The translations under genes were made by a program, and so were the position numbers. Under the pieces are notes generated by a model. It was not told the DNA's origin. It made no database searches and worked only from the letters and a program-made list of their open reading frames with translations. This document shows positions 12,531-61,800 of a stretch of 64,000 nucleotides of DNA, piece after piece. This DNA is from Ligustrum vulgare. Its lineage: Eukaryota > Streptophyta > Magnoliopsida > Lamiales > Oleaceae. Position 1 is the first letter of the stretch; each line of letters starts with the position of its first letter. The DNA is taken from the NCBI GenBank assembly GCA_963555705.1, contig OY743190.1:12437501-12501500 (forward strand). Reading direction: 5' to 3'.

Positions 12531-12540
12531 TAGTTTAGAC

Positions 12541-14596: not shown

Positions 14597-14713
14597 AACC
14601 GTGCGGCCGCACGGTTGAAAAATCGTGCGGTCACACGGCCAAAAAAATCAGCGACTGAAGGTTGGCTTTTCGAGGCTGCGATCGCGCACTTTTGAACAGT
14701 GCGGTCGCACGGT
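14597..14713. repeat. Perfect 20-bp palindrome and two imperfect relatives in the LTR
   Basis: AACCGTGCGGCCGCACGGTT at 14597-14616 equals its own reverse complement. Related imperfect copies follow: CGTGCGGTCACACGG near 14624 and GTGCGGTCGCACGG near 14700. The 3' LTR has the first copy with one mismatch (GGCTGC) at about 24904. Just upstream of the TATA box, so possibly a binding array. Confidence 0.85.
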
Positions 14714-14794
14714 AGTCCCGACTGGGCCGCAACTGGGCTTTTTTCGCGGAATTCAACAGTTTTCTCCTCCATTAACCTAATTCTCGGGGAAATC

Positions 14795-14802
14795 TATAAA
14801 TA
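14795..14802 (+). promoter_or_regulatory. TATA box of the Athila-like 5' LTR
   Basis: TATAAATA in CTATAAATACCAGACC; identical context at 25100-25107 in the 3' LTR. Inferred start about 30 bp downstream. Confidence 0.6.
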
Positions 14803-24218: not shown

Positions 24219-25980
24219 TGATAGGTGTATTTTATACACTTATTTCTATTCTAAAAGTAGGATTTTATTTGTTTGTTTAAGAATATTTGCTATTTATTTA
24301 GTTAATATTGTTTGTATTTCAGAAATAATCCAAAGTCGAGAAAATAAAGGAAATGAAGCAAAAACAAGTCATTTGGATGATAAAAGAGCTAAAGTGTGAG
24401 AAACAAGAGTTGATGAAGTAAATCAAAAGGGTCAATTGGAAGAAAAGTCAAAGAAAAAACCAAATTGGAAGAAATTAGGAGTTCAAGGACTAAAGTATAC
24501 ACATCAAAAGAAGAAGGACAAAATTGCAAATATTCAATAGTTGATTCGGATCAAGATAAGATACTTGAGGACTTTTAGGAGTCAATTGGATGCAATTAGA
24601 AGGCAAAAAGGAATGAAATATGGTAATAATATTACCATAAATTCATTTCAATCAAACAAGGTCTTCGGACAGATTTTTAGTTAGACTTTGAAACCTAGTT
24701 TCGGGGCAATAAAGGTTCGAATTGGGAAAATCCTATTTCAGGAAGGTGAAATGAAAGACCTTGTTATCTTTCTAATGGACTTTGAAGCACCTAAATCGGA
24801 TAGGTGAAATGAAAGATATGATCAAAATACTAAATGCTGTGCAATAAAAGGATGAAGACCAAATTGCTGAAATTTAAAGAAGAAAATTGTTGCTACCGAT
24901 ATAACCGTGCGGCTGCACGGTTGAAAAATCGTGCGGTCGCACGGCCAAAAAAATCAGCGACTGAAGGTTGGCTTTTCGAGGCTGCGATCGCGCACTTTTG
25001 AACCGTGCGGTAGCACGGTAGTCCCGACTGGGCGCAACTGGACTTTTTTCGCGGAATTCAGTAGTTTTCTCCTCCATTAACCTAATTCTCGGGAAAATCT
25101 ATAAATACCAGACCTAAGGCACGAAATTAGGGGCTCCCAATCTTCATAATTCATGCCAAAACGCTGTCGAATTGCGAGGGGATCCATTGAAGGCCAAATT
25201 CAAGATTGAAGAACAAGGATCAAGGAGATGAATAGGGTGACATCTTTTCATACTTCTTGTGATTTATTTTCGATCATGTATTTAGGCTAGGTTTTAATTG
25301 TTAGAATTTTGATGAAGCATTAATTTATTGATTCCATGTTTTTACTTTATATTTATATTATGCAATTTATGAGATTGATGCAATTAATGATGTTTTTATT
25401 CTCATCTATGATTGTGGACGCATAATTATTGATGTTTGTGATAGATTTCTATGTTCGAAAGAGTAGGAATTTATTAGACATTGATTAATTGTCGCGAAGT
25501 CCAATAGAGGATAGAAATATATCCCTATGCTTCGTGTTATCCTAAAAAGTGTTCATAATTCATTAATGCTTTTCTACATGTTTGGATTGGTCATAGAAAT
25601 ATAGGCTCGTCTATTGTAGGAAGAGGTGTTTATGCATCGCTCGAAATGGGACATAAATAAATATAGGAACACGGATTTTCAATACTCATACCTTGTTATT
25701 AAATGTTTAAGTCAAATACATGGTTGATATGTTTAATGTGGATTCATAATTCTAACATATTCATCTCATCATTTTTAACAAATCAAATTTTTTTTTTTTT
25801 TTTTTTTGTTTAATTTTTAATTTATTTTTTAAAATCAAAATTTCCAAATCCTAAGCTTTTCTTGTTCCGGTTAAGGTTTGTAGTCTAAAATACGATTTAA
25901 AACAATCTCTGTGGGATCGATACTGGGACTCATGTCCACTTTATTATTTGAGCGACCCGTGCACTTGCGGATCGTTACCA
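24219..25980 (+). repeat. 3' LTR of the Athila-like element
   Basis: Begins TGATAGGTGTATTTTATACA, ends GCGGATCGTTACCA (TTATCA in the 5' LTR). TATA box at 25100-25107. Followed by the CATAT duplication. Confidence 0.92.
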
Positions 25981-25985
25981 CATAT

Positions 25986-26846
25986 AAGCTACAGTGGTTA
26001 AATGAATCGGGTGAGATTAAGGTGAATAAACAAGTGGTAGTTTATTTGGAGATTGGGAAGTATGAAGATAGCGTGGTTTGTGATGTGATACCAATGCATG
26101 CGGGGCACATCTTGTTGGGTAGGCTATGGCAATTCGATAGGAAGTTTATTCATGATGATTTTAAAAATAGGTATACCTTCACTAAGGATATACTAGGTGC
26201 TTTGTGAATAACAAGGTGTGTAGTTTGATAATAGATGGTGGTAGTTGTGCGAACGTTGCTAGCACTACTCTAGTGGAGAAATTGTGCCTACCTATACTAA
26301 AACACCCTAGGCCATATAAGCTACAGTGGTTAAATGAATCGGGTGAGATTAAGGTGAATAAACAAGTGGTAGTTGATTTGGCGATTGGGAAGCATGAAGA
26401 TAACGTGGTTTGTGATGTGGTACCAATGCATGCGGGGCACATCTTGTTGGGCAAGCCATGGGAATTCGATAGGAAGGTTATTCATGATGGTTTTAAAAAT
26501 AGGTATACATTCACTAAGGATGGGAAAAATATCAAACTAATGCCTTTATCACCTCAACAGGTCTATGAAGACCAACTGAAATTAAAAAGTGAGGAAGAGA
26601 GAAAGAGGGTCGGGACCACGATCCCGAAAAAAGGAGAGTTGTGTGAAAAATCGAGAATCGGGACCACAATCCCAGAAAAAGGAGAGGGTGTGAAGAATGC
26701 CAGTAAAAATAAAAGAGAGAAAACAAATGTGAGCTTCTACGCAAAACAGAGTGATATCACCAAAGCTATTTCTACAAATAAACCAGTGATTTTACTCATG
26801 TATAAAGAACCTCTGTTTCCATTAAATTCCTTATTCTTGATTCCAT
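25986..26846 (+). pseudogene. CRM-like protease, continued and then tandemly duplicated, plus pol linker
   Basis: 25986-26189 continues the protease (KLQWLNESGEIKVNKQVVV, HAGHILLGRLWQFDRK). At about 26187 a junction joins TFTKD to a second copy starting ALCE/NNKVCSLIIDGGSCAN, so about 330 bp of protease are repeated; the second copy reads through DLAIGKHEDNVVCDVVPMHA and on to YTFTKDGKNIKLMPLSPQQV. The linker [20 protein letters not shown] also precedes the RT at 11047. At about 26812 the linker is cut and joined to leader sequence. The two protease copies differ at several residues (YLEIGKYEDS versus DLAIGKHEDN), so the duplication is not brand new. Confidence 0.82.
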
Positions 26847-27136
26847 AAAACTTCTTCTTGCAATAAAATTCTTGTTTTCCATAATTCCATCTTCAAATTT
26901 CCTAATTCCAATTTTCCATCAACTTTCCTTATTTGCACTTTGGGGTTTATTCCACAAGGACCAAATATGTGACTAGTTTGGTGGGTTCTTTGAGAACGTG
27001 GGAAAAAGGGAATAGAGAGGAAAAAGGCAGAGTGGTGAGATTAATAGAGGGAAAAAGCCAAAATCGAGTGATACACGAATGATAAAACACGTGAGGATCT
27101 TTATTTAATTTTTTTCTCTTTTCTTTAATACTAACC
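26847..27136 (+). other. Second copy of the CRM-like leader
   Basis: Starts within a block (CATTAAATTCCTTATTCTTG and on to CCATAAAACTT) shared with 11013-11046, then continues as AT-rich leader up to the gag ATG. The 5' LTR-proximal leader lacks this later part, so the two leader pieces are complementary. Confidence 0.7.
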
Positions 27137-27949
27137 ATGTCGCAGAAGGATGCTTCATCGACGGAAAAGGATCTTCAAGACTTTAAAATGCTTGCAATGA
27201 TGGAGGAACGGTTTGAAAAATGGGAGGCGAGGTTGGATGCCAAGTTGGAAGCAAAATTTGGTCCACAATCCGACGTGAATGTGGAAAGGGCAAATAATCC
27301 GGGGGAGACACGTGGTGCTGGAATTGCTCAACCACGTCAGGATCAACCGCGCAATTTCCCTAATTTACGAAGGCCACTCAGGTATGACTTCAACCCACAG
27401 TTTAGAGCTAGGAATGAACATGTTGAGGTTGATGATAGTGATGAAGATAGTGGTGAATTGTCTATTACTAGTGTTGGTAGGAGACGAGATCGGGGAGAAA
27501 GACGTGATAGGGGATATAGGCATGATCGTAGGGATAATGTAGATGGGCATGTTGGTAATATTAAAATGTCCATTCCCTCGTTTCAAGGTAAAAGTAATCC
27601 GGACACTAAGCTTGTGAAAGAACTTCATGAGAAGGTGAAAGGGCAAATTGAAAAGAAAAAATGAGCGTTATGCGACTCATGCCAACAAAGGTAGGAGGCA
27701 AGTGACGTTCGAGCCGGGTGATTGGGTGTGGGTGCACTTGCGAAAGGAGCGATTCCCAACCCAAAGGAAGTCTAAGTTGCAGCCAAGAGGCGATGGACCT
27801 TTTCAGATCCTTGAAAAGATAAATGAGAATGCATATAAACTCGATCTTCCAAGTGAGTATAATGTGTCTGCTTCTTTTAATGTTGCTGATCTTTCTCTGT
27901 TTGATGCAGGTGGTGATTCGAGGACGAATCCGTTTCAACAGGGAGGGGA
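27137..27949 (+). pseudogene. CRM-like gag N-terminus fused to integrase C-terminus (second copy)
   Basis: ATG at 27137 begins gag (MSQKDASSTEKDLQDFKM), with a basic and acidic stretch (VEVDDSDEDSGELS, GRRRDRGERRDRGYRHDRRD) and the capsid start SIPSFQGKSNPD. At 27603 it is joined to the integrase C-terminus ([18 protein letters not shown]), which runs with one extra A at about 27655 into [18 protein letters not shown] and DGPFQILEKINENAYKLDLP. The frame passes the purine tract and continues inside the 3' LTR to 28235. The stretch TTTCAAGGTAAAAGTAATCC is present both here (27580) and at the gag junction at 12855. Confidence 0.85.
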
Positions 27950-28897
27950 TGATGAGTTCCGGAGTGGCTCGAAGAAAGTTGACCCGTTGCACGTGCCCGC
28001 TAGACCAATAACGAGGCAAAGAGCCAAAAGAATCAAGCAGACAATGCAAGGATTCATGCAAGCGTGGATGGATGAGTGCTCAAGTTCAAAGACCTCATTT
28101 ACGTTGCATAACAAAGTGGAAGAGGAACCAAAGTTGTTACAAGGCATTTGGATCAAAGAACAACTAGAATTTGGGGGCAGAAGCGTTATCACGGCCGTAA
28201 CACCCATTTTTACGACGGTAAATCATCTTGGCTAAAATTGTGCAGAAAGATAGTCACGGCCGTAAACCATGATCTCACGGCCGTAACATCATCAAGACAA
28301 ATTTATGCAGAAGAGGACTTACGACCGTAAACCAAATCCTCACGACCGTAAATATAGTTTAGTAGTTTTTATTTTTTTGTTCAGAAGGTCACTTACGACC
28401 GTATATAAATTTGTCACGGCCGTAACATATGTTTTTAATTTTTAATACGTAGCTTACTTACGGCCGTAAACTCATAAGTCACGGCCGTAACTTAGGTGCC
28501 GCAATTTAAGATAATGTTAGGCGGTGTGGTTTATTTACAATTCTAGTTTATTTAGGTTGTTTTATTTTGTTAGCCTATTTATAGGGCTTCATTCAGCATT
28601 GTAAAATACACAACTTTTATTCTTGAGATTAATGATATTGAAGGTGAGATATTCCCTTAATTTTCTTCTTGTTCTCGTTGAACAAATTTGAACTTATCAA
28701 AGGATTTGACAACCTTTGTGGTGTTCCCCCTTTGTGGTTCTTATCTCCGCATCGTAACGAATCTTGGGTTTAATATACCCATAGTTCTTGCGTCGTGAGG
28801 TCGGGGTTCCATTGTTATCATCTACTATCTTGGATTTTAGAGCTTTCCGGCGTTTAATTCCGCGTGTTCTTGGTGATCCCCATATCGGATCACATCA
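27950..28897 (+). repeat. 3' LTR of the CRM-like element
   Basis: Begins TGATGAGTTCCGGAGTGG directly after the purine tract AACAGGGAGGGGA, ends CGGATCACATCA, followed by the GGTTC duplication. Carries the same palindrome array at about 28188-28495. Its first 285 bp are translated as the pol tail. Confidence 0.92.
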
Positions 28898-40904: not shown

Positions 40905-41568
40905 ATTCAGGATATGAGATACAGATAACAGTGGATGCAGGTTTCTGGTTAATTGAGGCGTTAGATACAGTTTGCAGAACAGGGAGTTTTGGAAGATGCA
41001 ACACACTCTTCAGAAACAGTAATAAGAGTTTATGGTTGGAACGATTTTGAAATAACAGAGGTGAGTTCTTGAAAATCTCTACCTTGAGAAACAGATTGAT
41101 AGGAAACATCATCGTCCCTTCAGAGGAGGAAGGTAAAGGGTGGCAGGATTTCATAAATTGTCTGGGCAAGGTTATTGGAAAGGAGAGCAGAAGGCAAAGG
41201 CAACTAACAAAAATACAACCACAGAGATCAGAAGAGGTAATGTTGGAGAAAAAATCATGGGCAACAGTGGTAAGTGGAAAATGCATACCGAAGGAGAAAA
41301 AAGACACGAACAGACCTGGTGAAAACATCCAACAGAATTCCATACAAAGCGAGGAAGCTATGCAAACGCATAAAATCTTGAACCATGCAGTGTTACTTTT
41401 CAGGGAGACGAGTCATATACCTCGGGAGACCATTCAATATGGGCCGAAGAATTCATTGAATATAGAGTATGAAGTCAGACCTCTATATGATGACAGAGCG
41501 CTAATATGGTGTGTAAATGAAATAAAAAGAAATGGATTGATCAATTTAAAACAACTAAGTATCCCAGC
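40905..41568 (+). pseudogene. LINE ORF1, N-proximal part
   Basis: The frame GYEIQITVDAGFWLIEAL, then LWLERF, a TGA at 41048, then GEFLKISTLRNRLIGNIIVP and EEGKGWQDFINCLGKVIG, matches the N-terminal region of ORF1 in plant L1-type LINEs. It ends at KQLSIPA where the LTR element inserted; the next codons are at 51643. No good ATG is present because the element is 5' truncated. Confidence 0.7.
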
Positions 41569-44500
41569 TATAGCGACTCAGAATTTTTATGCAATAAATA
41601 ATTATTTTAATATTTAGAAAATTGTGTCGCTACTATTTCATTTATTATTTTGAAGTTAACGCCGCGACGGATTCGTCTAGTCAAGTCAAGAAATATCGAA
41701 TTTGTTCGATTTTAAATTAAAATCCGAATTTCTAAAATTATGTTATTTTAATATTATTTTCAAAATCATTTTGAATTCCAAATTTATTAAAATATCCCAA
41801 TGATCCTTATCAAATTATTTCAAGTCTAAATACGAAATCCAATTTTATCTCAAAATTTACTTACTTCTCAAATGTATTTTTCAGTCCAAAATATATCTGT
41901 TTTAAATACATTTCTTAATCAAAGTTAGTCTAATTTTCAGTTGATTACTTCCCACGTTTTGCATTTCTTTTTATTCTCCTTTCCACCTCATTTTCAACTT
42001 ATATCTCCACCAAACACTACCGTGAATTTCCCATCACGTTCACAGCAATGATATCCACCATCAAAGCAAACACCAAATATTCTTCATCATGATTCCCCAC
42101 CCCATTAACCATTTTCTTTCTTTCTTTTTCTTTCTTTTTCATATGCTTCCTCTCTTTACACATTATCACTACATGGAGAGAACAGACTGGAAAGTTTGGG
42201 AGATCGTGAGATAGGAATTAGGCTGATAAAATCTATACATATACAACACAACATTCAGACTCCATTTCAACAGCCTCCTTCCAACTTCATTGCAGCCTAG
42301 CAGCTGTAACCAACCTCACTGCAACCATAACCTGCAACCAAGAACCCAACCCAAACTTCTCACTGCCACGGCCAATTCACCACCACCGAATCAAGCAGCA
42401 ACCATCATCCACCAACGCTGCTATTATCAATACCACCTTCACCCAAATCAGTATTTTCCATCATTATAACAATACAACCATCACTGTCATTACTCAATTT
42501 TTCAGCCATGAACTTTCATCATCATCGTATTGGCATCAACCTGCAAGACAACCCACAGCCGCAACCTTCATCATATACATCAATCTGTAATCAATCATCA
42601 TCACCACTATCAACCAGCATCATCATCAGATTTTCACTAACTGCACAACCCATGATCATCACTGCCAAACCAGTTCACTGCCATGGCTCGCAGCCACCTC
42701 TATTGCCGATCGAACCTCAGTCACTGCCCCAGAATCACCACCAATCTGTATCACCTCTTCCACCAACACCACTGCACGATCAAATCCCTCAATCTGCCAT
42801 AATCGATACACCAAAACACCTACTGCCTACTGCTCAACATCAAACCCAACTCCAATCGCAATCCAAAATCAAAACCCAAAACCCAGATTAAGCCAAGCCC
42901 AAATACTTACTTCAAATCGCCGCTCCCTTCACTGTGAATCAGCAACTCCAAATCGCGAACCCTAGCCTCGGGTCACTCTTCGATTTCGCACCAAAATTTG
43001 TACCAAATCTACCCAAACTTGACAACCCTATTTAACCACCTTTTGCCGCACCCAGCGCCGGTGTTGCGCCGGCGAGTCACCGGCTGAAGGTCGGATTTTG
43101 GCTTGAATCGCCTCCTCCGCCCTTTTCTTCTCTGGTCGTGCGAGGTGAGTGAGAGAGAGAATAGTGTCGAGAGAGAGAAAGAAAATCTGAGAATATATTT
43201 TAACTTTTCAGAATTTGCAAATTAGTCCTCAAGTTTGAAAATGTTTTAGTTCAGTCCTTTTAGTTTTAAACTTATCAATATCAGCCCTTTCATTTTCAAA
43301 ATCTATTATTTCAGTCCCTGCTGATTTTATTAATTTGATTTTAAGCCCAAGTTTCAAAAGTATTCATTTTAATCCCTCAACTTTCAAAATATCTATTTTA
43401 GTCCCTGAACTTTCAAAAGTATTCATTTTAGTCCCTCAACTTTCAAAACATCAATTTTAGTCCTCAAATTATAATTTATCATTTTGAACTATATATTCGA
43501 TATACTAAAGTGACTTATTGGCTAAGACGAAGCGTACGGAGAATTTAAAGAAATTGAAGTCATTCCCGCTCAACTTTGCACTCGTCGGATTTGAGGTAGA
43601 CTCGCACTTATTAATTGATTTAAATTATGATTTCATATAAATGTCATGTGACTTGTGAAAGTCAATTTTTAAGAAAAACAAGTATGTTTTTATGAAAGGT
43701 AAATATACCTTATGTTTTTATGAAAAGTAAGTATACCCTATGTTTTTACGATAATGTTTTATATGTTTTGGATCATTGCTATGCACATAAGAATTCTTAC
43801 CACCTAAGTTCGGTAGAATTCTGTGTCTCCATAAGTTTATGAGGATTTACCACCTAAGTTCGGTAAAATTCCTGTCTTTCCATATGTTTATGAGGATTTA
43901 CCACCTAAGTTCGGTAAAATTCCTGTCGCGTATGTTTATGAGGATTTCGATCCTATCTTATGTTATGATGGAAATGATCCCTATGAATTTCATGAATTAT
44001 GTTTTGGTATACTTACTGTTATTATGATCTTACTGTTATTATGATTTTACTACATAAGAATTCTTACCACCTAAGTTCGGTAAAATTCTTATGTTTATGA
44101 GGATTTCGATTTTATCCTATGTTATGATGAAAACTTACTGTTATTATGATTTTACTACATAAGAATTCTTACCACCTAAGTTCGGTAAAATTCTTATGTT
44201 TATGAGGATTTCAATCCTATCTTATGTTATGCTTTCAAAAGAAATTATGCTTGGCATAATTAAAATGTTTTTATAAGTATATGGTTTTCAAAGAGCTATT
44301 TTCAAAGAGCCTATGATTTGCAAAATATGTCCCGTGCTGTAATGCAAAATATGAGTTTTATCAAGAGCAGTTTTATAAAGAAGCTCTATCAATGCCCGTT
44401 TTATAAAGAGCCGGGATTTATGTGTTTAATCATCTTATAAATTAAATTAATTTGCGATGAGTCTACTGAGTATTTCCCCCATGAAATACTCACCCTACTT

Positions 44501-44853
44501 TAAACAGTTTTGCAGATTTCGGAGACGGTGGCGAGCGATGAATGATGGTGGCAATAATCGTTGAACGGTTGAAAGTTTGACGTTAATGATTTCCGTATTT
44601 TCCAAACAATCGAATAATTTAGAGAAGTTCATTTATTTGAGAAATTATGATATTGGCAATTTCTTTACAATATTAATGGTTCGATTTACTATTTCAAATG
44701 GTTTCATAAATGTTTTCAATTTTAGCGGCCATTACAGTTTATTTAATGTTGCCAAAAATGAATTTCAATTATTTCTTCCGCAAAAATATTATTCGAAAAA
44801 TTTAGACAGAAAATGACGTAGTGAATCGGGTATACGGAACTCGGGGCGCTACA
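41569..44853 (+). repeat. 5' LTR of the gene-carrying element
   Basis: Begins TATAGCGACTCAGAATTTTT, ends CTCGGGGCGCTACA. Contains a P/Q/H-rich 127-codon open frame (42508-42891) with no recognisable domain, a run of TTTAGTCCCT-type repeats (about 43220-43460), and the hairpin cluster. A TATACATATA block at 42234-42243 is a possible TATA element; in the 3' LTR it is TATATATATA. Confidence 0.93.
43789..44215. repeat. Five-copy hairpin repeat cluster in the 5' LTR
   Basis: Five copies of ACCACCTAAGTTCGGTA with flanks that pair, for example GAATTCTTACC against GGTAAAATTC around the loop ACCTAAGTTC. Between copies are ATGTTTATGAGGATTT blocks. Identical cluster at 50578-51004. Confidence 0.88.
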
Positions 44854-44856
44854 AGT

Positions 44857-44868
44857 TGGTATCAGAGC
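44857..44868 (+). other. Primer binding site of the gene-carrying element
   Basis: TGGTATCAGAGC, three bases after the LTR end; matches initiator Met tRNA. It sets the element orientation as plus. Confidence 0.9.
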
Positions 44869-45690
44869 TAGTCTGCGTTTCTGTAGACTGGAAAAAATTT
44901 TCAAAAAGAATTTTCAAGAAATATTTTCCATTTTAAGATTTTTATTGATGAAGATTGCCACTGCCATCATTCGTTCCACCAACTCCGAGGTAAAGAAGTT
45001 TATGATGTTTAAAGTTATTTCAGTATTTCGAATACTCATTTTATTGATTTATGAGAAAGAATGAAGAGTATTTCGGATACTTATGATTTATGAGAAATAA
45101 GAATGTATTTCTTCGAAAATAATGATGTTGTTATGCTTTGTCATAACTTATATGCTTTAATGTATGATTATGAGAAATTTTTTAAGAAAGAAAACGAGTG
45201 TTGAGCATAATGGGAACAATATGATTTTATTGAAAATTAAGTAATGGATATTATGTTGAGTAAATGAATTATGCCTCTATGTTGAAGAGAAATTTATTAT
45301 GAAGTTTGGCTTTGTGAATAAATTTTGGGAATATGATTTATGACATATATTTATAATTATGAGTAGTCTTTTGAGCCAATTAAGGTATGGAAGGAAGTAA
45401 TATTGTGATATTGAAAAATATGATTTGAAATTTCTATGTTGAGGAATTATGAATTGAATTATGGGATATTTTGATGATATTGAAGTGTTGGAATCGTTTT
45501 CAATATTTTAGATCGTTGTGATCAAATGTGGAGTTATTTATTATTGGGAGTTATGAAGTATGCTTATGGTTTGGATAAGTCCAAATTACAAGGGAGACTC
45601 TATCCAGAATTTTATCATTTGGAATTAAGAGCATAATATGATAAGCATCCACTAAAGGAATTAAGGTTAGACATGCAAGATCATTTACAT
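44869..45690 (+). other. 5' internal leader of the gene-carrying element
   Basis: AT-rich, no coding frame. It starts with the GCTAGTCTGCGTTTCTGTAG leader and degenerates into ATG/TTG-rich sequence. The gag that should follow is absent; foreign sequence seems to begin near 45690. Confidence 0.6.
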
Positions 45691-45830
45691 CACAAACGAG
45701 ATTTAGTAGATGATAGCAGAGATTTTATTATTTTCTCATAAGGAGAACACACAAGAGTCACACTGGAAAGGAAATACATGAAACACACGAAAGCATAAGA
45801 GAAAAACATGGAAAGATCCTCAGAATGAGA

Positions 45831-46047
45831 GATGTGTTTCCGGAGTAGCCGTATCCTACCACCTCTGATCTTTTGAGGAAATAAAGAAACCTTCAAAGAG
45901 GTGTGTTTCGAGAGTAAGAATACTCCGTAATCTACCACCTGGAATCTTTGAAGTACACACAAGATTTAAACATTAAGGAAATCCTAGTAAATGGAGGGGT
46001 GTCTCGAGAGTGAGAATACTCCGTACTCTACCCCCACCTATTCTAAG
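45831..46047. repeat. Three imperfect repeats with GAGTA/TACTC hairpins downstream of LOG
   Basis: Units at about 45831-45874, 45898-45950 and 45993-46047. The latter two share TCGAGAGT[AG]AGAATACTCCGTA; GAGTA and TACTC can pair around AGAA. All are followed by a CTACC-rich block. They lie just 3' of the LOG stop codon, so would be in its 3' UTR. Confidence 0.8.
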
Positions 46048-46049
46048 AT

Positions 46050-46703
46050 TCAAAGAGTTAAGTTTACATTAACCGGACTCCATTTTCGCTTGATTCCCCT
46101 TCCTTGCGACCAATCTATCTTAACCCCTGCTGGATCTTGTATTGAGATATATGACTGCAGCTTATCCAATAGTTCATCAATAGTAGGAGCAGAAATAAGA
46201 AGCCTTCTGGAAAATGGAGAGATGAATCCCTGTTCCACAGCATAATCAAGAAAGGTTAACAAACCATTAAAGAAATTGTTAACATTCAGAAGCCCAATAG
46301 GCTTAGTATGGAGATCTAGTTGAGCCCACGAGGTAATGTTAAAAATTTCTTCTAAGGTACCAAAACCTCCGGGCAGGGCTATAAAGGCATCAGAACCATA
46401 TAGCATACAAGTTATGCGTTCATGGATGGATAAGGTTTGAACTTCATGCCCTCGTGTTTTGCCTGCAACATCTACCAAAGGGACAGGTATAACACCGATT
46501 ACTTTTGATTTCTCTGCAAGAGCAGATTGGGAAACACAACCCATTAGACCACTGCTACCACCCCCATATACAAGAGTGATACCTTTTTCCCCCAGTTTCT
46601 TTCCAAGATCTACAGCCGCTTCTAGATAACCGAAGCCTTTCCCCACTTTTGATCCACAAAATACACAAATAGTTTTGATTTGTCGAAGTTTTGGTGCTTC
46701 CAT
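46050..46703 (-). CDS. LOG: LONELY GUY (LOG) type cytokinin riboside 5'-monophosphate phosphoribohydrolase
   Basis: A 217-residue intact frame. LOG enzymes release free cytokinin bases from their riboside monophosphates in the cytosol and nucleus. Visible motifs: CVFCGS (13-18), YGGGSSGLMG (46-55), the HER motif (94-96), and the family signature PGGFGTLEE (111-119) followed by SWAQLDLHTKPIGLLN. Length is normal for the family (about 200-230). The whole gene is one exon, while plant LOG genes normally have several introns, so it derives from a spliced RNA. It lies between the LTRs, antisense to the element, with a TATA-like box 76 bp upstream. No disabling change is seen. Activity and expression are not known from sequence. 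Confidence 0.9.
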   Translation of the reverse strand: MEAPKLRQIKTICVFCGSKVGKGFGYLEAAVDLGKKLGEKGITLVYGGGSSGLMGCVSQSALAEKSKVIGVIPVPLVDVAGKTRGHEVQTLSIHERITCMLYGSDAFIALPGGFGTLEEIFNITSWAQLDLHTKPIGLLNVNNFFNGLLTFLDYAVEQGFISPFSRRLLISAPTIDELLDKLQSYISIQDPAGVKIDWSQGRGIKRKWSPVNVNLTL

Positions 46704-46778
46704 CTTTGATAGTATAGAAGAGAAAACTTACGAAGAAAATGTGATTTTGGGATGCCTGAACTATGAAATATGTTTGGC

Positions 46779-46786
46779 TATTTAAA
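46779..46786 (-). promoter_or_regulatory. TATA-like box upstream of LOG
   Basis: Minus strand TTTAAATA in CCGGCTTTAAATAGCC, 76-83 bp from the ATG. A start 25-30 bp downstream would give a leader of about 50 nt. The block CTATTTAAA (plus strand) also lies upstream of the neighbouring gene. Confidence 0.55.
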
Positions 46787-46905
46787 GCCGGAAAAAATTT
46801 ACTGTTTTTGATTGATTCTGAAAAAGTAAAGATTTACTTTTGACAAAATCAACCCACTTTTGAATATTTTTATCGTATCAAGGCTGTCACTTTTCGGCGA
46901 TTAAA

Positions 46906-46987
46906 TATTTATTTCCAGCTTTATCAAACCTCGAGAAAAGAAAAATATATTTATTTCCAGCTTTATCAAAACTCGAGAAAGGAAAAT
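46906..46987. repeat. Two tandem copies of a 40-42-bp unit between the two captured genes
   Basis: TATTTATTTCCAGCTTTATC followed by AAACCTCGAGAAAAG, repeated once with small changes; a third partial start (TTTTTATTTCCA) follows at about 46989. Upstream of the LOG promoter, so possibly regulatory. Confidence 0.85.
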
Positions 46988-47055
46988 ATTTTTATTTCCA
47001 AAACGCGTTAAAGAAAATAGCAAAATATTTTAAAAAGCATATCAAAAGATTTACC

Positions 47056-47607
47056 TTATATCATTGCTGAACTGCCAGAAGCCTCATTTTGTAAAACAGA
47101 CTGGCAAACAGGATCTTTTGCTATTATATTTTGGAGACTATAACGATTTTTGTCCTCGTTAAACTGAGCGTATAAGGAGAGAAGTTCACGTTGTACATAA
47201 CCACTTGGGTGCGTCTCAAGAGTCAGTCGAATATCATCCAAAGACTCCTTACTCAGTCCACCCTTTATGAATTCGATTTTATCATCCCGATTAATAGAAG
47301 AATATCCTACTGATTTGCAACGAGTATCACAATTCCAACGAGCACATTTGTAGCAACCACCCAGTCTTTTTGCTCTTCGTTTCTTTGCAAACGTGCTTTT
47401 GCCTAAACCAGGCATGTGTTTAGGAAATGTTGATGGTAATTCACCAGATAGTCGAACCTTTGCTTCTATCAACCAGCGAACATCTTCTGGAATACCATGA
47501 GTCATCAGCAACCTCAATCTTTCGAGCCTTATTCTATAGATCTTTCTCAGATCATTCATAGGAAGACTGGAATAATACTTGCGGATGTTTGTAAGGATGA
47601 TATCCAT
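47056..47607 (-). CDS. Basic zinc-finger protein resembling plant virus nucleic-acid-binding proteins
   Basis: A 183-residue frame from ATG at 47607; an in-frame TTG 15 bases upstream is too close to the inferred transcript start. A helical, charged N-terminal part (RKIYRIRLERLRLL) precedes G-K-S-T-F-A-K (69-75), a basic run KKRRAKR (75-81) and four cysteines C85, C88, C93, C97 (CYKCARWNCDTRC), then FIKGGLSKESLDD. This order (GxSTFA, arginine/lysine run, Cys cluster, then [FY]I/VxxG) is what I know from the small nucleic-acid-binding proteins of vitiviruses and carlaviruses, which can suppress RNA silencing. The match is by eye; the longer N- and C-terminal parts are not typical. Function here is unknown. 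Intact, intronless and on the same strand as LOG, about 350 bp upstream of it. Confidence 0.6.
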   Translation of the reverse strand: MDIILTNIRKYYSSLPMNDLRKIYRIRLERLRLLMTHGIPEDVRWLIEAKVRLSGELPSTFPKHMPGLGKSTFAKKRRAKRLGGCYKCARWNCDTRCKSVGYSSINRDDKIEFIKGGLSKESLDDIRLTLETHPSGYVQRELLSLYAQFNEDKNRYSLQNIIAKDPVCQSVLQNEASGSSAMI

Positions 47608-47640
47608 TGTTTGATGATTCAACCTCTTCTCAGCATGAAC

Positions 47641-47648
47641 TATTTAAA
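47641..47648 (-). promoter_or_regulatory. TATA-like box upstream of the zinc-finger gene
   Basis: Minus strand TTTAAATA in GCGCTTTTAAATAGTTC, 34-41 bp from the ATG at 47607. The spacing would place the transcript start close to 47615, giving a very short leader. It shares CTATTTAAA with the LOG promoter. Confidence 0.5.
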
Positions 47649-48357
47649 AGCGCAAAGGATCTGAGTGAATCCGCGTGATGTTGTAACCAGCAAGAAAGCG
47701 CAGGATTATTTTAATGAAAAGAGGAGACAAGAAGTAATGCGCTGTTAAATTTTATCGATAAAGGAGATTTGATTGGAGATTTGGAATATTTTCTTGGATT
47801 ATGGGTACTGATATTTTGTTTTAATAATGATAATCTTGGTATAGTGTGATGATACGTGGAAAGTAAAATGAGTACCGTATTGAATCAGAATTCATACGTA
47901 TATACAAGTGAAAGAAATACTTTGCAGGAAATATGGTGACATTTAAGTATAGAATCTTAGTTTTGGGAGATATTTGTTTACTGAATTTTGGGTTACAAAT
48001 ATTGGAAAGATAAGTTGATGATATTATGTTGATATGTTTGGGTATATTACGTAGAGAAGATATTCAGGTAATTCTTTGATTATTTTTGGAATTTTCGATG
48101 ATAAGAAAGGAAAAATTATTATGATACGATATGTCAGTAAAGATTTGTTGAAATTTTAGAGATATATACGAATATTTGAGGTCACATGATACGATACTAC
48201 AAGATATGATGAAATTTTTACATACGATTGGGAATTGTTTTGATTATTTTGAGAATAATTCGATGATAAGAAAAAGAGATTCTGATTAAGTATTCAGAAA
48301 TTATAAGATTAAGTAAGTTTAATTTCGAGGACGAAATTATTTTTAAGGAGGTAAGAT
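47649..48357 (+). other. 3' internal region and polypurine tract of the gene-carrying element
   Basis: AT-rich, non-coding. The last 60 bp (TTTAATTTCGAGGACGAAAT, then AAGGAGG at 48345-48351) are typical of the sequence just before the 3' LTR in Tekay/Del-type gypsy elements. The border between captured and element sequence lies somewhere between about 47650 and 48300 and cannot be fixed from one copy. Confidence 0.65.
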
Positions 48358-51300
48358 TATAGCGACTCAGAATTTTTATGCAATAAATAATTATTTTAAT
48401 ATTTAGAAAATTGTGTCGCTACTATTTCATTTATTATTTTGAAGTTAACGCCGCGACGGATTCGTCTAGTCAAGTCAAGAAATATCGAATTTGTTCGATT
48501 TTAAATTAAAATCCGAATTTCTAAAATTATGTTATTTTAATATTATTTTCAAAATCATTTTGAATTCCAAATTTATTAAAATATCCCAATGATCCTTATC
48601 AAATTATTTCAAGTCTAAATACGAAATCCAATTTTATCTCAAAATTTACTTACTTCTCAAATGTATTTTTCAGTCCAAAATATATCTGTTTTAAATACAT
48701 TTCTTAATCAAAGTTAGTCTAATTTTCAGTTGATTACTTCCCACGTTTTGCATTTCTTTTTATTCTCCTTTCCACCTCATTTTCAACTTATATCTCCACC
48801 AAACACTACCGTGAATTTCCCATCACGTTCACAGCAATGATATCCACCATCAAAGCAAACACCAAATATTCTTCATCATGATTCCCCACCCCATTAACCA
48901 TTTTCTTTCTTTCTTTTTCTTTCTTTTTCATATGCTTCCTCTCTTTACACATTATCACTACATGGAGAGAACAGACTGGAAAGTTTGGGAGATCGTGAGA
49001 TAGGAATTAGGCTGATAAAATCTATATATATACAACACAACATTCAGACTCCATTTCAACAGCCTCCTTCCAACTTCATTGCAGCCTAGCAGCTGTAACC
49101 AACCTCACTGCAACCATAACCTGCAACCAAGAACCCAACCCAAACTTCTCACTGCCACGGCCAATTCACCACCACCGAATCAAGCAGCAACCATCATCCA
49201 CCAACGCTGCTATTATCAATACCACCTTCACCCAAATCAGTATTTTCCATCATTATAACAATACAACCATCACTGTCATTACTCAATTTTTCAGCCATGA
49301 ACTTTCATCATCATCGTATTGGCATCAACCTGCAAGACAACCCACAGCCGCAACCTTCATCATATACATCAATCTGTAATCAATCATCATCACCACTATC
49401 AACCAGCATCATCATCAGATTTTCACTAACTGCACAACCCATGATCATCACTGCCAAACCAGTTCACTGCCATGGCTCGCAGCCACCTCTATTGCCGATC
49501 GAACCTCAGTCACTGCCCCAGAATCACCACCAATCTGTATCACCTCTTCCACCAACACCACTGCACGATCAAATCCCTCAATCTGCCATAATCGATACAC
49601 CAAAACACCTACTGCCTACTGCTCAACATCAAACCCAACTCCAATCGCAATCCAAAATCAAAACCCAAAACCCAGATTAAGCCAAGCCCAAATACTTACT
49701 TCAAATCGCCGCTCCCTTCACTGTGAATCAGCAACTCCAAATCGCGAACCCTAGCCTCGGGTCACTCTTCGATTTCGCACCAAAATTTGTACCAAATCTA
49801 CCCAAACTTGACAACCCTATTTAACCACCTTTTGCCGCACCCAGCGCCGGTGTTGCGCCGGCGAGTCACCGGCTGAAGGTCGGATTTTGGCTTGAATCGC
49901 CTCCTCCGCCCTTTTCTTCTCTGGTCGTGCGAGGTGAGTGAGAGAGAGAATAGTGTCGAGAGAGAGAAAGAAAATCTGAGAATATATTTTAACTTTTCAG
50001 AATTTGCAAATTAGTCCTCAAGTTTGAAAATGTTTTAGTTCAGTCCTTTTAGTTTTAAACTTATCAATATCAGCCCTTTCATTTTCAAAATCTATTATTT
50101 CAGTCCCTGCTGATTTTATTAATTTGATTTTAAGCCCAAGTTTCAAAAGTATTCATTTTAATCCCTCAACTTTCAAAATATCTATTTTAGTCCCTGAACT
50201 TTCAAAAGTATTCATTTTAGTCCCTCAACTTTCAAAACATCAATTTTAGTCCTCAAATTATAATTTATCATTTTGAACTATATATTCGATATACTAAAGT
50301 GACTTATTGGCTAAGACGAAGCGTACGGAGAATTTAAAGAAATTGAAGTCATTCCCGCTCAACTTTGCACTCGTCGGATTTGAGGTAGACTCGCACTTAT
50401 TAATTGATTTAAATTATGATTTCATATAAATGTCATGTGACTTGTGAAAGTCAATTTTTAAGAAAAACAAGTATGTTTTTATGAAAGGTAAATATACCTT
50501 ATGTTTTTATGAAAAGTAAGTATACCCTATGTTTTTACGATAATGTTTTATATGTTTTGGATCATTGCTATGCACATAAGAATTCTTACCACCTAAGTTC
50601 GGTAGAATTCTGTGTCTCCATAAGTTTATGAGGATTTACCACCTAAGTTCGGTAAAATTCCTGTCTTTCCATATGTTTATGAGGATTTACCACCTAAGTT
50701 CGGTAAAATTCCTGTCGCGTATGTTTATGAGGATTTCGATCCTATCTTATGTTATGATGGAAATGATCCCTATGAATTTCATGAATTATGTTTTGGTATA
50801 CTTACTGTTATTATGATCTTACTGTTATTATGATTTTACTACATAAGAATTCTTACCACCTAAGTTCGGTAAAATTCTTATGTTTATGAGGATTTCGATT
50901 TTATCCTATGTTATGATGAAAACTTACTGTTATTATGATTTTACTACATAAGAATTCTTACCACCTAAGTTCGGTAAAATTCTTATGTTTATGAGGATTT
51001 CAATCCTATCTTATGTTATGCTTTCAAAAGAAATTATGCTTGGCATAATTAAAATGTTTTTATAAGTATATGGTTTTCAAAGAGCTATTTTCAAAGAGCC
51101 TATGATTTGCAAAATATGTCCCGTGCTGTAATGCAAAATATGAGTTTTATCAAGAGCAGTTTTATAAAGAAGCTCTATCAATGCCCGTTTTATAAAGAGC
51201 CGGGATTTATGTGTTTAATCATCTTATAAATTAAATTAATTTGCGATGAGTCTACTGAGTATTTCCCCCATGAAATACTCACCCTACTTTAAACAGTTTT

Positions 51301-51642
51301 GCAGATTTCGGAGACGGTGGCGAGCGATGAATGATGGTGGCAATAATCGTTGAACGGTTGAAAGTTTGACGTTAATGATTTCCGTATTTTCCAAACAATC
51401 GAATAATTTAGAGAAGTTCATTTATTTGAGAAATTATGATATTGGCAATTTCTTTACAATATTAATGGTTCGATTTACTATTTCAAATGGTTTCATAAAT
51501 GTTTTCAATTTTAGCGGCCATTACAGTTTATTTAATGTTGCCAAAAATGAATTTCAATTATTTCTTCCGCAAAAATATTATTCGAAAAATTTAGACAGAA
51601 AATGACGTAGTGAATCGGGTATACGGAACTCGGGGCGCTACA
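48358..51642 (+). repeat. 3' LTR of the gene-carrying element
   Basis: Copy of 41569-44853 with no indel and one substitution found by eye (49027). Contains the same 127-codon low-complexity frame (49297-49680) and hairpin cluster (50578-51004). Confidence 0.93.
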
Positions 51643-53774
51643 TCCCAGCGGTAACTACAGTCTCCTTTTTGCCTCGGAACTGGAACTACCAGAAGGATAC
51701 CGTAAAGGTGGATTGCAGGAGCAGCTGGATGGGAGTGGAGGGGCTTCCTTTGAATTTATGGAATATACACATGTTTAAAGTAATTGGGAATCTTTGTGGA
51801 GGATTACTGGATATAGATAAGGAGACAGTAGAAAAAAATGTTTTGACTCATGCTCAACTGAGGCTAAAAGGAAATGAGAAGGGCTTTGTCCCAGAAACAA
51901 TCTGCTTACCCTATGAAGGTTCTGAAATCACAATTAGGTTCTTCAAATTAAATGATAGAAGATACAGATTTCATGGAATTTTTAACACCTTATGGAATCA
52001 AGAAGGAGCCAGGAATGAGCAAGCAGCTTCCTCAGGTGCCGGTGATGAAACAACGGTACCAGATGAAGAAGATGATGACGTGGTAGAATCAAACATAAGA
52101 TTGATGTGTGACGTGGCAACGGAAGTTGAAAATTCTAATAAAGATGGAAAGAGAGAAAAATTGGTTTTTTGCATGAAGAGTCCCAAAGACGGCGATGTCA
52201 GTACTGTAAAGACAAAATACAGCTCGATGCAGACAGAACACAAGAAGGCTACAGCTCACGAGATGAACACAGTTAGCCTCAGAGAAATTTTTGAAAAACT
52301 GAATCATTACCTAACATTGGAAAATGCAACCGGCGCGCATGTCAGCGTACCTCCAACGATGACAGATAATATCGGGCTTCCACTGGAGGTTAGAGGAACA
52401 AGGGATATAACTCAAAAGGGCTGTAAAAAATGGGTCAACAAATATGGGCCAAACTTGAATAATTGTGGGCTAAAAAATAACCCAATAACTTTCATGGGCA
52501 AAGTTTACCATCGCAGAAACAAGAAACAAACCAATCCCGTTTCGGACAGACTACTTGCGGCCCTGAAGAACTTTGATTTTGGACCGATTATTACCAATTT
52601 CAAAAACCCAAACCCAATTCTCAATTCCAGTAATAACCCAACAAAATGTCGGATTACTCAGTCTGAATCGTCTATGCGGAAGACGACAACACTATTCAGA
52701 GCGGGTTTAGGAAACGACAGACACAAATGTTTCATCCAAGGGATTATATATAGCTGTAGAAATGTCCATTTCGAACTCGTGGAGGGCAGTAAAAGGAAAT
52801 CTGTACTGAGTTCTGAGGAGGAAGACGAAGCTGAAAATGATATGGAAATAGAAGATGTATTTGCAGGGACCTTGAAGAACAATAGAAGCATTATAGTGAC
52901 CTCCAATACAGAAACAGACATGATTCCGGCAATTGATACAGATGCAGGATTGGAAAATATATGGGAGAATGAAGAAACAGTGGAAGATGATATATGCAGA
53001 ATCGAGGATATAGAGGAATTTGAGCATAGTGTTTCCGATGCTGAAGAATACGACACAGACAATGACATTGAACAAGATTATAATGTGATAGAGGAAATTG
53101 GAGACTTATTTCTAGAGTGGCAGAGACCTTTTCAAGAGAACAAGGAACAGGGTAAGCTGGACCTGAAGAATCAACCGACAAATTCTAAGCAACCGGTACA
53201 TACTCTAACATACAAAGATGATCCAACCTCAGTTTCAAATACCAAGTTAGTTAACAGGCCTGAATTTTCTACTTTTTCTACAACACCTCAACGACCAACA
53301 AAGCCAGGTATTATTGACCTATCTCACTCTCATTTGGAAATTTCTAGAGATATTCCAGTTTCTTGCAATAAAAACACAGGTGCTATTGAAGAGGAAAAAC
53401 GGAAATATCTCGCACCAGCCGTTGGAACTGGTAGTATACCTGATAATACACAACATAATGGCACAAGTGCATCCGGTTCTTTGGAAGTGTCAACTTTTGT
53501 TTATCCTAACCATAGCTAAAAAGGGATAGTGAATGGTGATAGAGGAATCCGAATGGAGGATGATTTGGAGAGATTGTCACATATCATTAGAACTTTGAAG
53601 TTATCCCTTGTCCGTTTAAGGTCTCCAGAAAATCACAAAAAATGTAGGAATACAGTCAATACAAGGAAAAATACCAAAAAAGGGGTTAGAGAATTAAAAA
53701 ATCTCCATAGCAGTATGCCAGTATCAATTATGATGGGAGACTATTTACAGGTGAAAGAGGCAGGGAGAATGTGA
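51643..53774 (+). pseudogene. LINE ORF1, main part
   Basis: The frame continues ORF1 across the insertion: the DUF4283-like block (GVEGLPLNLWNIHMFKVIGN, GGLLDIDKETVEKN, then FVPETICLPYEG and EITIRFF) followed by a long acidic, serine-rich region. A TAA at 53517-53519 interrupts the frame, which then continues in the same phase (IRMEDDLERLSHII, RELKNLHSSM) to a stop at 53772-53774, seven bases before ORF2. ORF1 proteins of this type bind RNA in the LINE particle. The second LINE (63.9-62.5 kb) has the matching C-terminus. Confidence 0.78.
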
Positions 53775-58813: not shown

Positions 58814-61800
58814 CTATGGGGTATTCATACCAGTAGTCCCCAAAGAACTCTTAGGATCTAAACAGAACAGGAAATTTTCTAAACCACTAAACAGAGCGGC
58901 TGCTCTAGCCCATAAACCCATGAAAAATATGATGTTCTCCCAAATGTCTTCCATCGTTCTTTCAATATTGCTAAAAATCCTTTTATTTCTTTCTAACCAT
59001 ATCGTCCACGCTCCTGCCAGTACAAAAATTCTCCAAATTTCCTTCTTTCTTTCCATGTTATCCCCGAAATTCCATTTGATAAGGATCCAATCCGCCCAAC
59101 GTCTAGGCATTGCACCACATACTCCAAACATATTCAGCAGTCTATCCCAAATTCCTTTTGCTAATTCACAATGTATCAATAAATGATCGATCGTTTCATT
59201 AGCCTTTTTACACATGATACAAAACGATGGGGAAATATACCAACTAGGTCTCTTCAATTGTAATAAATCCCAAGTGTTCACCTTCCCCAAAGACACCAAC
59301 CAAGCAAAAACTTTAACTTTTGTGGGAATTATTCCTTTCCAAATAAATTTGAATTGTGGGAAATTGGAATCGCTAGGGTATTGACAAAGAAGGTTCAGAA
59401 AGGATTTGCATGAAAAAGAACCCGATGGGTGACCAATCCAAATTCTTTTATCCAATGAGAATGGGTCAATAGTGATTTTTTCGAGCAAATTGGAAAGGGA
59501 AGTGAATTCTTCAATATCTCTGTCATTAAGATTTCTACGGAATCCAAGGTTCCAAGAGGGTGTTGAATTTGGTGTTAAGGATATTACATTGTTGATGGCG
59601 GAGTTTTTATTATTAGATAGCCGAAAGAGGCGAGGAAATAATGTTTGAAGGGTTTGGTCACCCAACCAATTATCTAACCAAAATCGGATTGTATCCCCTT
59701 TCCCAACCACTAGTTTGGTGTTTACCTGAAAACTATTCCAGACTCTTGTAATGGATTTCCATGGTGCCCGATAAGTAGAATTAATTTCCATGCCTGCATC
59801 TTGACCGTTTGAATGGAGACCATACCGACTAGTGATTATGGAATGCTAGAGTGACTTGGATTCTAAAGGGAACCGCCAAAGCCATTTACCAAGGAGTGCC
59901 AAATTCCTCAAATGAAGCTTGCCAATCCCTAGGCCTCCTTGTTCCTTTGATTTTGCGACAACTTCCCATTTGACTAGGTGGTCGCTATATCCCTCCCCTT
60001 TTCCTTCCCAAAAGAAATCCCTCATCATCTTCTCAATCATCTTTACCACCTTCAAAGACATTCTAAAAATTGACATGAAATATGTTGGAATACTCCCCAG
60101 AACCGACTGCAAAAGCACTAATCGCCCTCCTCTTGATAAGCAGCCTCTGTGCCACCCTTCCAATCTTCTTGCAATTTTCTCCACCACTGGGTTCCAAAAA
60201 GTATAAGTATTTGGATTTCCTCCTAATGGTAGTCCAAGATAATTCAATGGCCAACTACCTTTTTGACAACCCACTTTCTTCATGATGTCTTCAAGCCTTT
60301 GTTCTGTCAAGTTAATGCCTACTATCGTGCTTTTGGCTAGGTTGATTTTTAATCCCGCACTTCTTGAAAAAATCTCCAATATTCCTATGAGGTTTTCGAT
60401 GCTCTCATCTTTATTCTCCAAAAAGAAGATATTGTCATCTGCAAATTGTAAATGTGAGACCCTCACTTTATTATTACCAATCTTAAATCCTTCCAATACC
60501 TTCATATCACAAGCCTTATTCACCAATCTACTTAGGACATCCCCTACTAAAATGAAGAGAAAGGGTGATAGTGAGTCTCCTTGCCTTAATCCTCTAGATG
60601 CATCGAATTTCCCCCTTGGTTTGCCATTAATCATCACTGAGAAATGCACTGACGACAAACAGCCCTTTATCCATTCCCGCCATCTTTCACCAAAACCTTT
60701 CCTTTCTAACACAAAATCTAAAAATTCCCAACTAACATGATCATATGCCTTTTCAAAATCAATTTTAAACACCATCCCTTCTTTATTCTTTGCCCTATAT
60801 TCCTCAACAGTCTCATTTGCAATCAAAACCGGGTCCAGGATTTGCCTTCCTTTCACAAAAGCACACTGGCCTACATCTATTGTTTCTTCCATGACTTTCT
60901 TCAATCTCAAAGATAGGACCTTCGCTATTATCTTGTATAACGAGGTAACCAGACTTATCGGTCGAAAATCTTTGATGGAAATTGAATTCACTTTTTTTGG
61001 AATGAGGCTTATGAATGTTTCATTTACTCTAGCATTTACAATGCCGTTCACATAAAATTCATTGAACACCTTCATCAAGTCCTCCTTAATAACTTCCCAA
61101 CCCTCCTTTAGTGCTGCCATAGAAAAACCGTCTGGTCCTGGTGCTTTATCTCCATCACATTCAAAAAGGGCATTTTTAATTTCCTCTTCCTGGAAAGGTT
61201 CCTCCAGTTTCAATCTCATTTCCATGTTAATACTCGCCCATTCTAACCCGTCAATACCAATACTAGTTGTCTCCTCCTTACTGAACAACTCTCGAAAGTA
61301 ATCTATGATTTCCTTCTCAATTTCCTCTTCCCTGTGAAGGATTTTCCCGTCTCTGGTCTCAAGTTTATTGATCAAATTATTCATTTTCCTTCCGCTTGCA
61401 ATTCTATGAAATATTTTAGAGTTGTTATCCCATTCTTTGACTCCTTTGAGCCTTACTTTCTGATTCCACGAGATTTCTTCCCTTATAATCAAATCCTCCA
61501 ATTGTCTTCTTAGGTTTTTTCTCTCAACTCTCTCCTCTTCCCCGATATTCTATCTACCATCTTCCTTGTCAATCTCTTCAATCCTCTTCATGATTGCCTT
61601 TTTCTTCATTCTTATTTCACCGAATTCTTCTTGATTCCACTTTTTCAATTCTTCTTTCATCAATTTCAACTTCGTCATGAATCTGAATCCTGCCCAACCT
61701 TCAATTTTCCACTTATCCCACCATTCCTTCCATTTTCTACTAAAATTCTTATGCCTATATTTTCAAAGCGAAATGGACTAGGCCCCCACTTGAATCTGTT

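Follow-up and report, generated by a model that had tools for sequence, protein, structure and literature searches.

The 64,000-nucleotide stretch of the Ligustrum vulgare genome analysed here (contig OY743190.1, positions 12,437,501 to 12,501,500 of the forward strand; hereafter the window) contains a complete and recent long terminal repeat (LTR) retrotransposon at 41569-51642, whose interior (44854-48357) carries two intronless genes, one for a LOG-like protein and one for a zinc-finger protein of the carlavirus nucleic-acid-binding protein (NABP) type (Table 1). The features expected of an LTR retrotransposon are all found: near-identical direct LTRs, a target-site duplication (TSD), a primer site and a purine tract. 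The sole difference between the two LTRs is at position 42238 (C/T). The motif TTGGTATCAGAGC, which we take to be complementary to the initiator methionine tRNA, occurs with at most one mismatch at three sites in the window, against 0.08 expected by chance, and the site at 44856-44868 is exact. The element ends of the family are written TATAGCGA...CGCTACA, and the TSD is 7 bp long in the window element and 5 bp (GTTGG, CAAAA) in two other elements. The 3' end of the interior has what we take to be a chromovirus-like look.

Four start-to-stop frames of at least 70 amino acids (aa) are present in the interior: the LOG and NABP genes, both on the minus strand, and two frames of 84 and 90 aa that were left out of the domain scan. 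No gag or pol was recognised among the interior start-to-stop frames, none of which exceeds 90 aa apart from LOG and NABP; decayed gag-pol remnants were not searched for. Each of the two genes has a TTTAAATAG-type TATA-like box upstream, 75 bp before the LOG ATG and 33 bp before the NABP ATG. The NABP box is identical in six of six aligned sequences, and the LOG box in four of the six, being altered in locus L063 and in the decayed locus L060. A preliminary description of this DNA had reported two 3285-bp LTRs with one difference, a primer site and a purine tract, the lack of gag and pol, and two intact antisense open reading frames (ORFs), each with a TATA-like box, and in all of this it was accurate.

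Table 1. Features of the element and its borders in the window. Borders of the mosaic stretches are approximate, having been set by comparison with one element, and shift with the partner chosen.
Feature	Position	Strand	Basis
5' TSD copy TCCCAGC	41562..41568	.	direct repeat flanking element
5' LTR, 3285 bp, ends TATAGCG...CGCTACA	41569..44853	+	LTR pair comparison
Mosaic stretch of 5' LTR, element-specific	41809..43149	.	LTR positions about 241-1581
Primer-binding-site motif TTGGTATCAGAGC	44856..44868	+	exact match, 2 bp inside 5' LTR border
LOG-like gene, 217 aa, intronless	46050..46703	-	ORF and family profile
TATA-like box TTTAAATAG upstream of LOG-like gene	46778..46786	-	motif
Carlavirus-type nucleic-acid-binding zinc-finger gene (NABP), 183 aa from ATG, intronless	47056..47607	-	ORF and profiles
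TATA-like box TTTAAATAG upstream of NABP gene	47640..47648	-	motif
Polypurine tract AAGGAGGTAAGA	48345..48356	+	motif
3' LTR, 3285 bp	48358..51642	+	LTR pair comparison
Mosaic stretch of 3' LTR, element-specific	48598..49938	.	
3' TSD copy TCCCAGC	51643..51649	.	direct repeat flanking element

Copies of the element and selection on its genes

The 1.38-Gb (1384.9 Mb) genome contains a great many related copies. All 40 scored matches to the interior (the best 40 of 5588 candidates) align at 94-100% identity; among the copies other than the window every LOG frame is intact (39 of 39), and NABP is complete and undisrupted in 38 of the 39, with the remaining copy (L019) aligning one base short. Across the 40 aligned copies NABP has neither a gap nor a stop variant before the last codon. 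With NABP as the query, all 150 scored copies (the best 150 of 8794 candidates) are free of stops, and with LOG residues 1-100 as the query, all 150 scored copies (the best 150 of 8174) are identical to the window, 142 of them keeping a 225-aa open frame as counted from the results table. These identical copies, tied in score, all lie on contigs C1-C3, and their number is thus at least 150; because these contigs make up just 254.6 of the 1384.9 Mb, the genome as a whole can reasonably be extrapolated to hold several hundred copies of this kind. A one-off capture of the two genes is rejected by these matches (40 of 40 interiors, 150 of 150 NABP copies and 150 of 150 copies of LOG 1-100).

Two further samples were drawn with other queries. 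A piece of Arabidopsis LOG used as the query gives 146 of 150 scored matches (the best 150 of 8010) that are stop-free within the match, again counted from the table. Among eight loci taken from this search, four (L057 and L061-L063) have both genes open, and the other four (L058, L059, L060 and L064) have stops or frame breaks. A search with the LTR end and leader returns 40 places, 98-100% identical and hence still young, and at 20 of them the LOG position was examined: LOG is present in 18, in 17 of these intact.

The ratio of non-synonymous to synonymous divergence (dN/dS) was counted by a Nei-Gojobori type method with our own script. Between the window and L061-L063, dN/dS is 0.066-0.077 for LOG at a synonymous divergence (dS) of 0.48-0.53, and 0.12-0.15 for NABP at a dS of 0.65-0.75; old broken LOG copies give 0.21-0.38. 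Variants among the window and its 39 closest copies tell a similar story. In LOG there are 29 synonymous and 18 non-synonymous variants, against 35.2 non-synonymous ones expected under random placement, a deficit reached in none of 5000 simulations, and in NABP there are 24 and 25, against 36.4 expected, with a fraction of 0.0004 as low. The LOG variants shared between copies are 20 synonymous to 3 non-synonymous and those found in a single copy are 9 to 15 (Fisher p 0.0008), the pattern to be expected where constraint acts on the propagating lineage but not on single copies. To judge from these sequence comparisons, both proteins appear to have been maintained by natural selection.

The preliminary description had proposed that the element spreads both genes together, and this is borne out by the very many open copies, the purifying selection and the adjacency of relatives of the two genes in the Orobanche gene models described below. 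Two outcomes that would have counted against it, the absence of any other copy with these genes and decay of the frames in all other copies, are excluded.

Unexpectedly, the LTRs of the family have a mosaic organization. LTR pairs within each of six elements are nearly identical (Kimura two-parameter distances of 0.0003-0.0025), and between the six elements likeness is limited to the first ~220-530 bp and the last ~1.7 kb of the LTR. In the middle of the LTR the longest unmatched runs in pairwise comparisons are 428-1576 bp (0.4-1.6 kb), and short common patches are present at shuffled places. Not every pair differs in this way, L006 and L008 being 99.9% identical over the first 1.5 kb. Two loci in opposite orientation (L002 and L007) were left out of the ten-locus comparison of the LTR middle. 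Among L048-L056 and the window, the LTR middle is unrelated between most elements compared, and the LTR ends and interior are conserved. The LTR middle of the window element recurs elsewhere in the genome, whole or in pieces with sharp breakpoints, and the recurrences are often paired ~6.5 kb apart, as LTRs would be. Copy-choice recombination of the presumed promoter region during reverse transcription would fit this mosaic, which is a possible case of promoter shuffling.

We also note 24 tandem arrays (for example C22:15290865-15317298 and C9:10258304-10285519) that hold 58 of the 150 NABP copies with a spacing of 6.1-7.1 kb, corresponding to an LTR-interior-LTR-interior order. Unequal exchange would give arrays of this kind.

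The encoded proteins and their relatives in other plants

The window LOG protein matches PF03641 with an E value of 1.7e-33 and scores 161.7 against TIGR00730, above the cut-off of 96.35. Against the NF058542 equivalog it scores 107.6 for a cut-off of 300, in an NCBIfam model that was built for bacteria and archaea and against which canonical plant LOGs were not scored alongside. Its structure model, a confident one with a predicted local distance difference test (pLDDT) score of 87, superposes on Arabidopsis At2g37210 (PDB 2a33_B) with a template-modelling (TM) score of 0.96 by target length. The catalytic residues R96 and E119 are kept, as is PGGFGTLEE, an instance of the PGGxGTxxE motif.

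The protein has 6788 matches, and the 120 listed include proteins from Xanthoceras, Diospyros, Reevesia, Diplodiscus, Populus, Primulina, Parasponia and Melia. We refer to these 120 as transposable-element (TE)-type, a label given without LTRs having been seen around them. A tree of 71 rows was built from 44 of the 120 TE-type proteins and the window protein, 24 of 120 canonical plant LOGs, and At5g11950, with a bacterial outgroup. In it the TE-type and canonical rows separate cleanly, with supports of 97/98 for the TE-type clade and 100/97, in a sample where the canonical rows are best matches to At2g37210, other plant LOG groups are hardly represented and the outgroup branch is long. Genes of Diospyros and Populus named LOGL10 (P0125, P0170, P0199 and P0221) fall among the TE-type LOGs, and these may be element genes annotated as hormone genes, although the LTRs around them were not seen; the family may thus confuse annotation, in that TE-type proteins carry the names of LOG hormone genes. 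Two short frames (C3:63532449-63532571 and C11:18438185-18438304) lie apart from the element copies, are 85% identical to Arabidopsis LOG and are probably host LOG exons. Recent capture of a host LOG is rejected, since the TE copies are just ~58-62% identical to Arabidopsis LOG, and it is also contradicted by the separation of TE-type from canonical proteins in the sampled tree.

The substrate pocket sets the TE-type proteins apart. In the Corynebacterium glutamicum LOG, the catalytic residues are Arg99 and Glu122, the adenine site consists of Met96, Lys100 and Glu121, and the proposed prenyl site consists of Met96, His97, Lys100, Glu125 and Trp129; alanine at the adenosine monophosphate (AMP)-binding or catalytic residues, a set that includes Lys100, nearly abolished activity, with S19A as the exception (PMC4979012). 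At the corresponding positions the window protein has R and E (catalytic), I, I and E (adenine site) and I, H, I, N and W (prenyl site). Comparison of the 120 TE-type proteins with 120 sampled canonical ones shows that the Lys100 position is K in 120/120 canonical and 7/120 TE-type proteins (M, I or L in 112/120), and that the Glu125 position is E in 120/120 canonical and 6/120 TE-type proteins. The catalytic Arg is kept in 112/120 and Glu122 in 118/120 of the TE-type group. The seven TE-type proteins with K include five from Xanthoceras and P0158; these six are first-branching in the TE-type clade, and the replacement of the pocket Lys therefore probably arose inside it. By their residues, the TE-type LOGs keep the hydrolase centre and are altered in the base-recognising pocket. 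With the pocket Lys replaced, cytokinin activation is not a safe assumption, and the cytokinin-activating enzyme named in the preliminary description is not established, because the pocket Lys and Glu present in all 120 canonical proteins are absent.

The window NABP matches the Pfam families Viral_NABP (31.1 bits, cut-off 23) and Carla_C4 (26.7 bits, cut-off 20.9). It has 345 matches, and those listed (120) include proteins of Orobanche, Populus, Xanthoceras and Acer. Forty proteins, the window and 39 of the 120 listed relatives, were aligned and scanned, and the families PF05515 and PF01623 match with E values of 0.001 or below in 36 and 35 of the 40, respectively. With exceptions, the 40 share a basic cluster of the AKKRRAKR type, followed by C-x2-C-x4-C-x3-C and a conserved C-terminal part. 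Of the four cysteines (C85, C88, C93 and C97), C88 and C93 are invariant and C85 and C97 are present in at least 90% of the 40; the spacing differs from that of the viral finger, which in jasmine virus C is C-X2-C-X12-C-X4-C (PMC8839810). An AlphaFold2 model (pLDDT 61, predicted TM score 0.33) is too weak to use, and a scan of viral contigs for NABP, with the single sequence and then with the alignment, found no relative.

The p12 protein of chrysanthemum virus B is a nuclear transcription activator and a cytoplasmic silencing suppressor, and silencing suppression by carlavirus p12 lowers small RNA levels (PMC7588395). A mandarivirus protein of the NABP kind also suppresses silencing (PMC12172455), and the nuclear signal of a viral NABP relative has been linked to a regulator of cell proliferation and leaf malformation (PMC8839810). 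By homology, the element NABP may likewise be a silencing suppressor or a transcription activator.

Relatives of the two genes are also found together outside Ligustrum. Three Orobanche gene models (P0016, P0018 and P0025) join NABP and LOG domains in the same order as in the window, and LOG and NABP distances correlate over eight chosen pairs (r 0.79, p 0.0001), comprising two loci read here, four sets of equal-sized contigs each taken as one, and two pairings by genus or species. Linkage deduced from equal-sized contigs as such was set aside: above 1500 bp there are 4 contigs with both genes against 0.45 expected by shift, which is suggestive only, and over all sizes there are 8 against a mean of 2.65, with 8 also reached by at least one shift.

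Possible roles of the two-gene cassette

What has to be explained, then, is an element whose structure, recent movement, many open copies, purifying selection, adjacency of related genes in Orobanche and changed LOG pocket are matters of observation. We consider it evenly balanced whether this is a non-autonomous LTR family with an antisense cassette of two genes behind promoter-like boxes, which borrows gag-pol and whose proteins act on the host cell. The window element would be one young copy of a large family encoding no recognised replication protein, with gag-pol supplied in trans by another element, and both proteins would benefit the element through their effects on the host cell where the locus is active. 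NABP could serve as a transcription activator and/or silencing suppressor, like its viral relative, and the LOG-type enzyme could alter the pool of adenine-type nucleotides or of cytokinins. The cell would then go on dividing or stay unsilenced, and new insertions would be passed to a larger number of descendant cells and to the germ line. In plants the germ line is not set aside early, and a switched-on locus that pushes its own cell to divide or to escape silencing would therefore gain descendants with new copies. Such coupling would link the trans-acting cargo to the copy that produces it. A bolder formulation, which we offer as tentative, is that the family is a retrotransposon satellite encoding only host-manipulation proteins: a viral-type nuclear regulator or silencing suppressor and a LOG-type hydrolase retuned to a new nucleotide. 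Selection would have held this pair together across eudicots, its action would lie at the level of the cell in which the element is active, and all copying machinery would be borrowed from another element.

Several observations weigh against the host-directed cassette. The strongest concerns a simple requirement for LOG in cis: a 128-aa LOG frame is common to 85 of 150 scored copies in a search with a 45-residue LOG query, as read off the table, and the one member of this class that was read (L087, C5:18434030-18434730) aligns with LOG from codon 103 onwards only; codons 1-102, with the catalytic Arg among them, are absent. A class of LOG lacking the N-terminal half has thus probably also multiplied, perhaps aided in trans. 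Among the 20 copies chosen by LTR end, LOG is broken in one and absent from two. The latter two, L085 and L086, are gene-less derivatives, with LTR ends and parts of the interior kept and neither gene present; they have no frame longer than 152 aa and are rejected as autonomous partners, and no such partner was found among the 20. L057 has Tyr in place of one zinc-finger Cys, and two of the three Orobanche fusions have Asn at the catalytic Arg and an altered PGGxGTxxE motif, the third being without that region. On the statistical side, the contrast between shared and single-copy variants is not significant for NABP (p 0.56), the absence of stops is not significant by itself (p 0.10 and 0.08), and dN/dS within the subfamily is higher (0.11-0.20 for LOG and 0.19-0.51 for NABP, from few changes). 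Searches return the best matches, so the intact counts are biased to young copies. Finally, free riders could exploit a trans-acting product, and a cis benefit must therefore be assumed.

Among other explanations, it seems to us unlikely that the pair forms an anti-silencing and anti-defence module that does not act on growth. NABP would block silencing of the element and the LOG-type enzyme would remove a non-cytokinin nucleotide, for example a defence signal, and the antisense transcripts of the element would form double-stranded RNA. The action of carlavirus p12, which suppresses silencing and lowers small RNAs (PMC7588395), is in line with this, as is the retention in TE-type LOGs of the hydrolytic Arg and Glu with replacement of pocket Lys100 and Glu125, but the alternative substrate is a conjecture. 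We are just as doubtful that the genes are passengers, captured once, whose intactness reflects the youth of the copies and on which selection acted in a former autonomous parent. An LTR divergence of just 0.0003-0.0025 in six elements leaves little time for decay, and copies with a broken or absent LOG have multiplied, but such an origin is already strained by dN/dS values of about 0.07 and 0.14 between subfamilies 0.5-0.7 apart in dS, by the 20:3 synonymous bias among shared LOG variants, by the retention of most promoter-like boxes, and by relatives of both genes that are adjacent in Orobanche and have correlated distances over the eight pairs. That the genes serve the host as domesticated cytokinin and regulatory genes is very improbable: the strong protein constraint would suit it, but a single domesticated locus would not be expected to give such large numbers of near-identical copies, or young elements flanked by target duplications, and the two 85%-identity frames, which we infer to be host LOG exons, are separate from the element copies.

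Neighbouring sequences and comparison with known systems

The sequence around the element is not all decayed, as the preliminary description had it, because an open frame of 616 aa (51669-53519) with a DUF4283 match starts directly after the element. The match covers the profile only from position 71 of 124 onwards, which makes it probable that the element has split this domain, and the interrupted frame looks like part of a long interspersed nuclear element (LINE)-like element. A reverse-transcriptase frame (59846-61501) is located nearby on the opposite strand to the 616-aa frame, and both are LINE-like. Elsewhere in the window, long direct repeats at 9804-15024 and 24218-28473, spaced 10.3, 15.1 and 18.1 kb apart, lie near Gypsy-type pol frames, which suggests nested LTR elements.

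Large retrotransposon derivatives (LARDs) have long LTRs, no gag-pol and a non-coding interior. The window element is similar in its long LTRs and in the lack of a recognised gag-pol, and differs in that its interior has two constrained genes. The NABP product is 183 aa long with a conserved C-terminal part and a C-x2-C-x4-C-x3-C spacing, in contrast to viral NABPs, which we assume to be near 100 aa. It shares with the carlavirus NABP exemplified by chrysanthemum virus B p12 (PMC7588395) the PF05515 and PF01623 families and a basic cluster followed by a four-Cys motif.

The preliminary description considered the element the best candidate for an undescribed system, and this may apply to the gene pair: in the open-licence literature searched, no description was found of LOG paired with a carlavirus-type gene in a retrotransposon. 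It does not apply to LOG as such, for LTR-element consensus sequences from Citrus and Populus that contain a YgdH/LOG domain have been published (PMC9289625, citing Steinbauerova 2011). These elements are alike in having a LOG-type domain inside a plant LTR element, and the TE-type group described here contains Populus proteins, but the passage on them in PMC9289625 makes no mention of a carlavirus-type partner, a non-autonomous structure, selection or a pocket change. The same paper describes orchid Gypsy elements with an AlkB N6-methyladenosine (m6A) demethylase, which are similar in that a host-acting enzyme is fixed in a plant LTR lineage, and different in being 25-kb elements with gag-pol and another enzyme, with no viral-type second gene mentioned in that account. 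Insect LINEs with RNA-virus helicase domains (PMC5563155, PMC4686597) likewise combine a retroelement with a domain related to plus-strand RNA viruses, although the domain is different, is part of the LINE protein and is found in insects.

The closest parallels in organization are Grande (gene23), RIRE2 and Retand, which have antisense extra ORFs in many copies and, in Grande, a promoter of their own (PMC7264820). The persistence of the antisense ORF in many or most copies is also observed here (LOG in 18 of 20), though there are many short-frame LOG copies. Grande, RIRE2 and Retand have gag-pol, and their products are without clear similarity except for an SMC and a transposase-28 domain; more generally, the antisense extra ORFs of plant LTR elements, although recognised for years, are of unknown function and mostly lack clear protein similarity (PMC7264820). 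The window element raises the questions of whether a selfish element profits when it alters how the cell expressing it grows or silences, and of how a trans-acting cargo stays intact in an element without replication genes, and its pocket change gives a clean enzymatic prediction. In contrast to Grande, RIRE2 and Retand it has no recognised gag-pol, and both of its products belong to known families, one of them viral-type, whose biochemistry has been studied, which makes the question of antisense genes directly testable.

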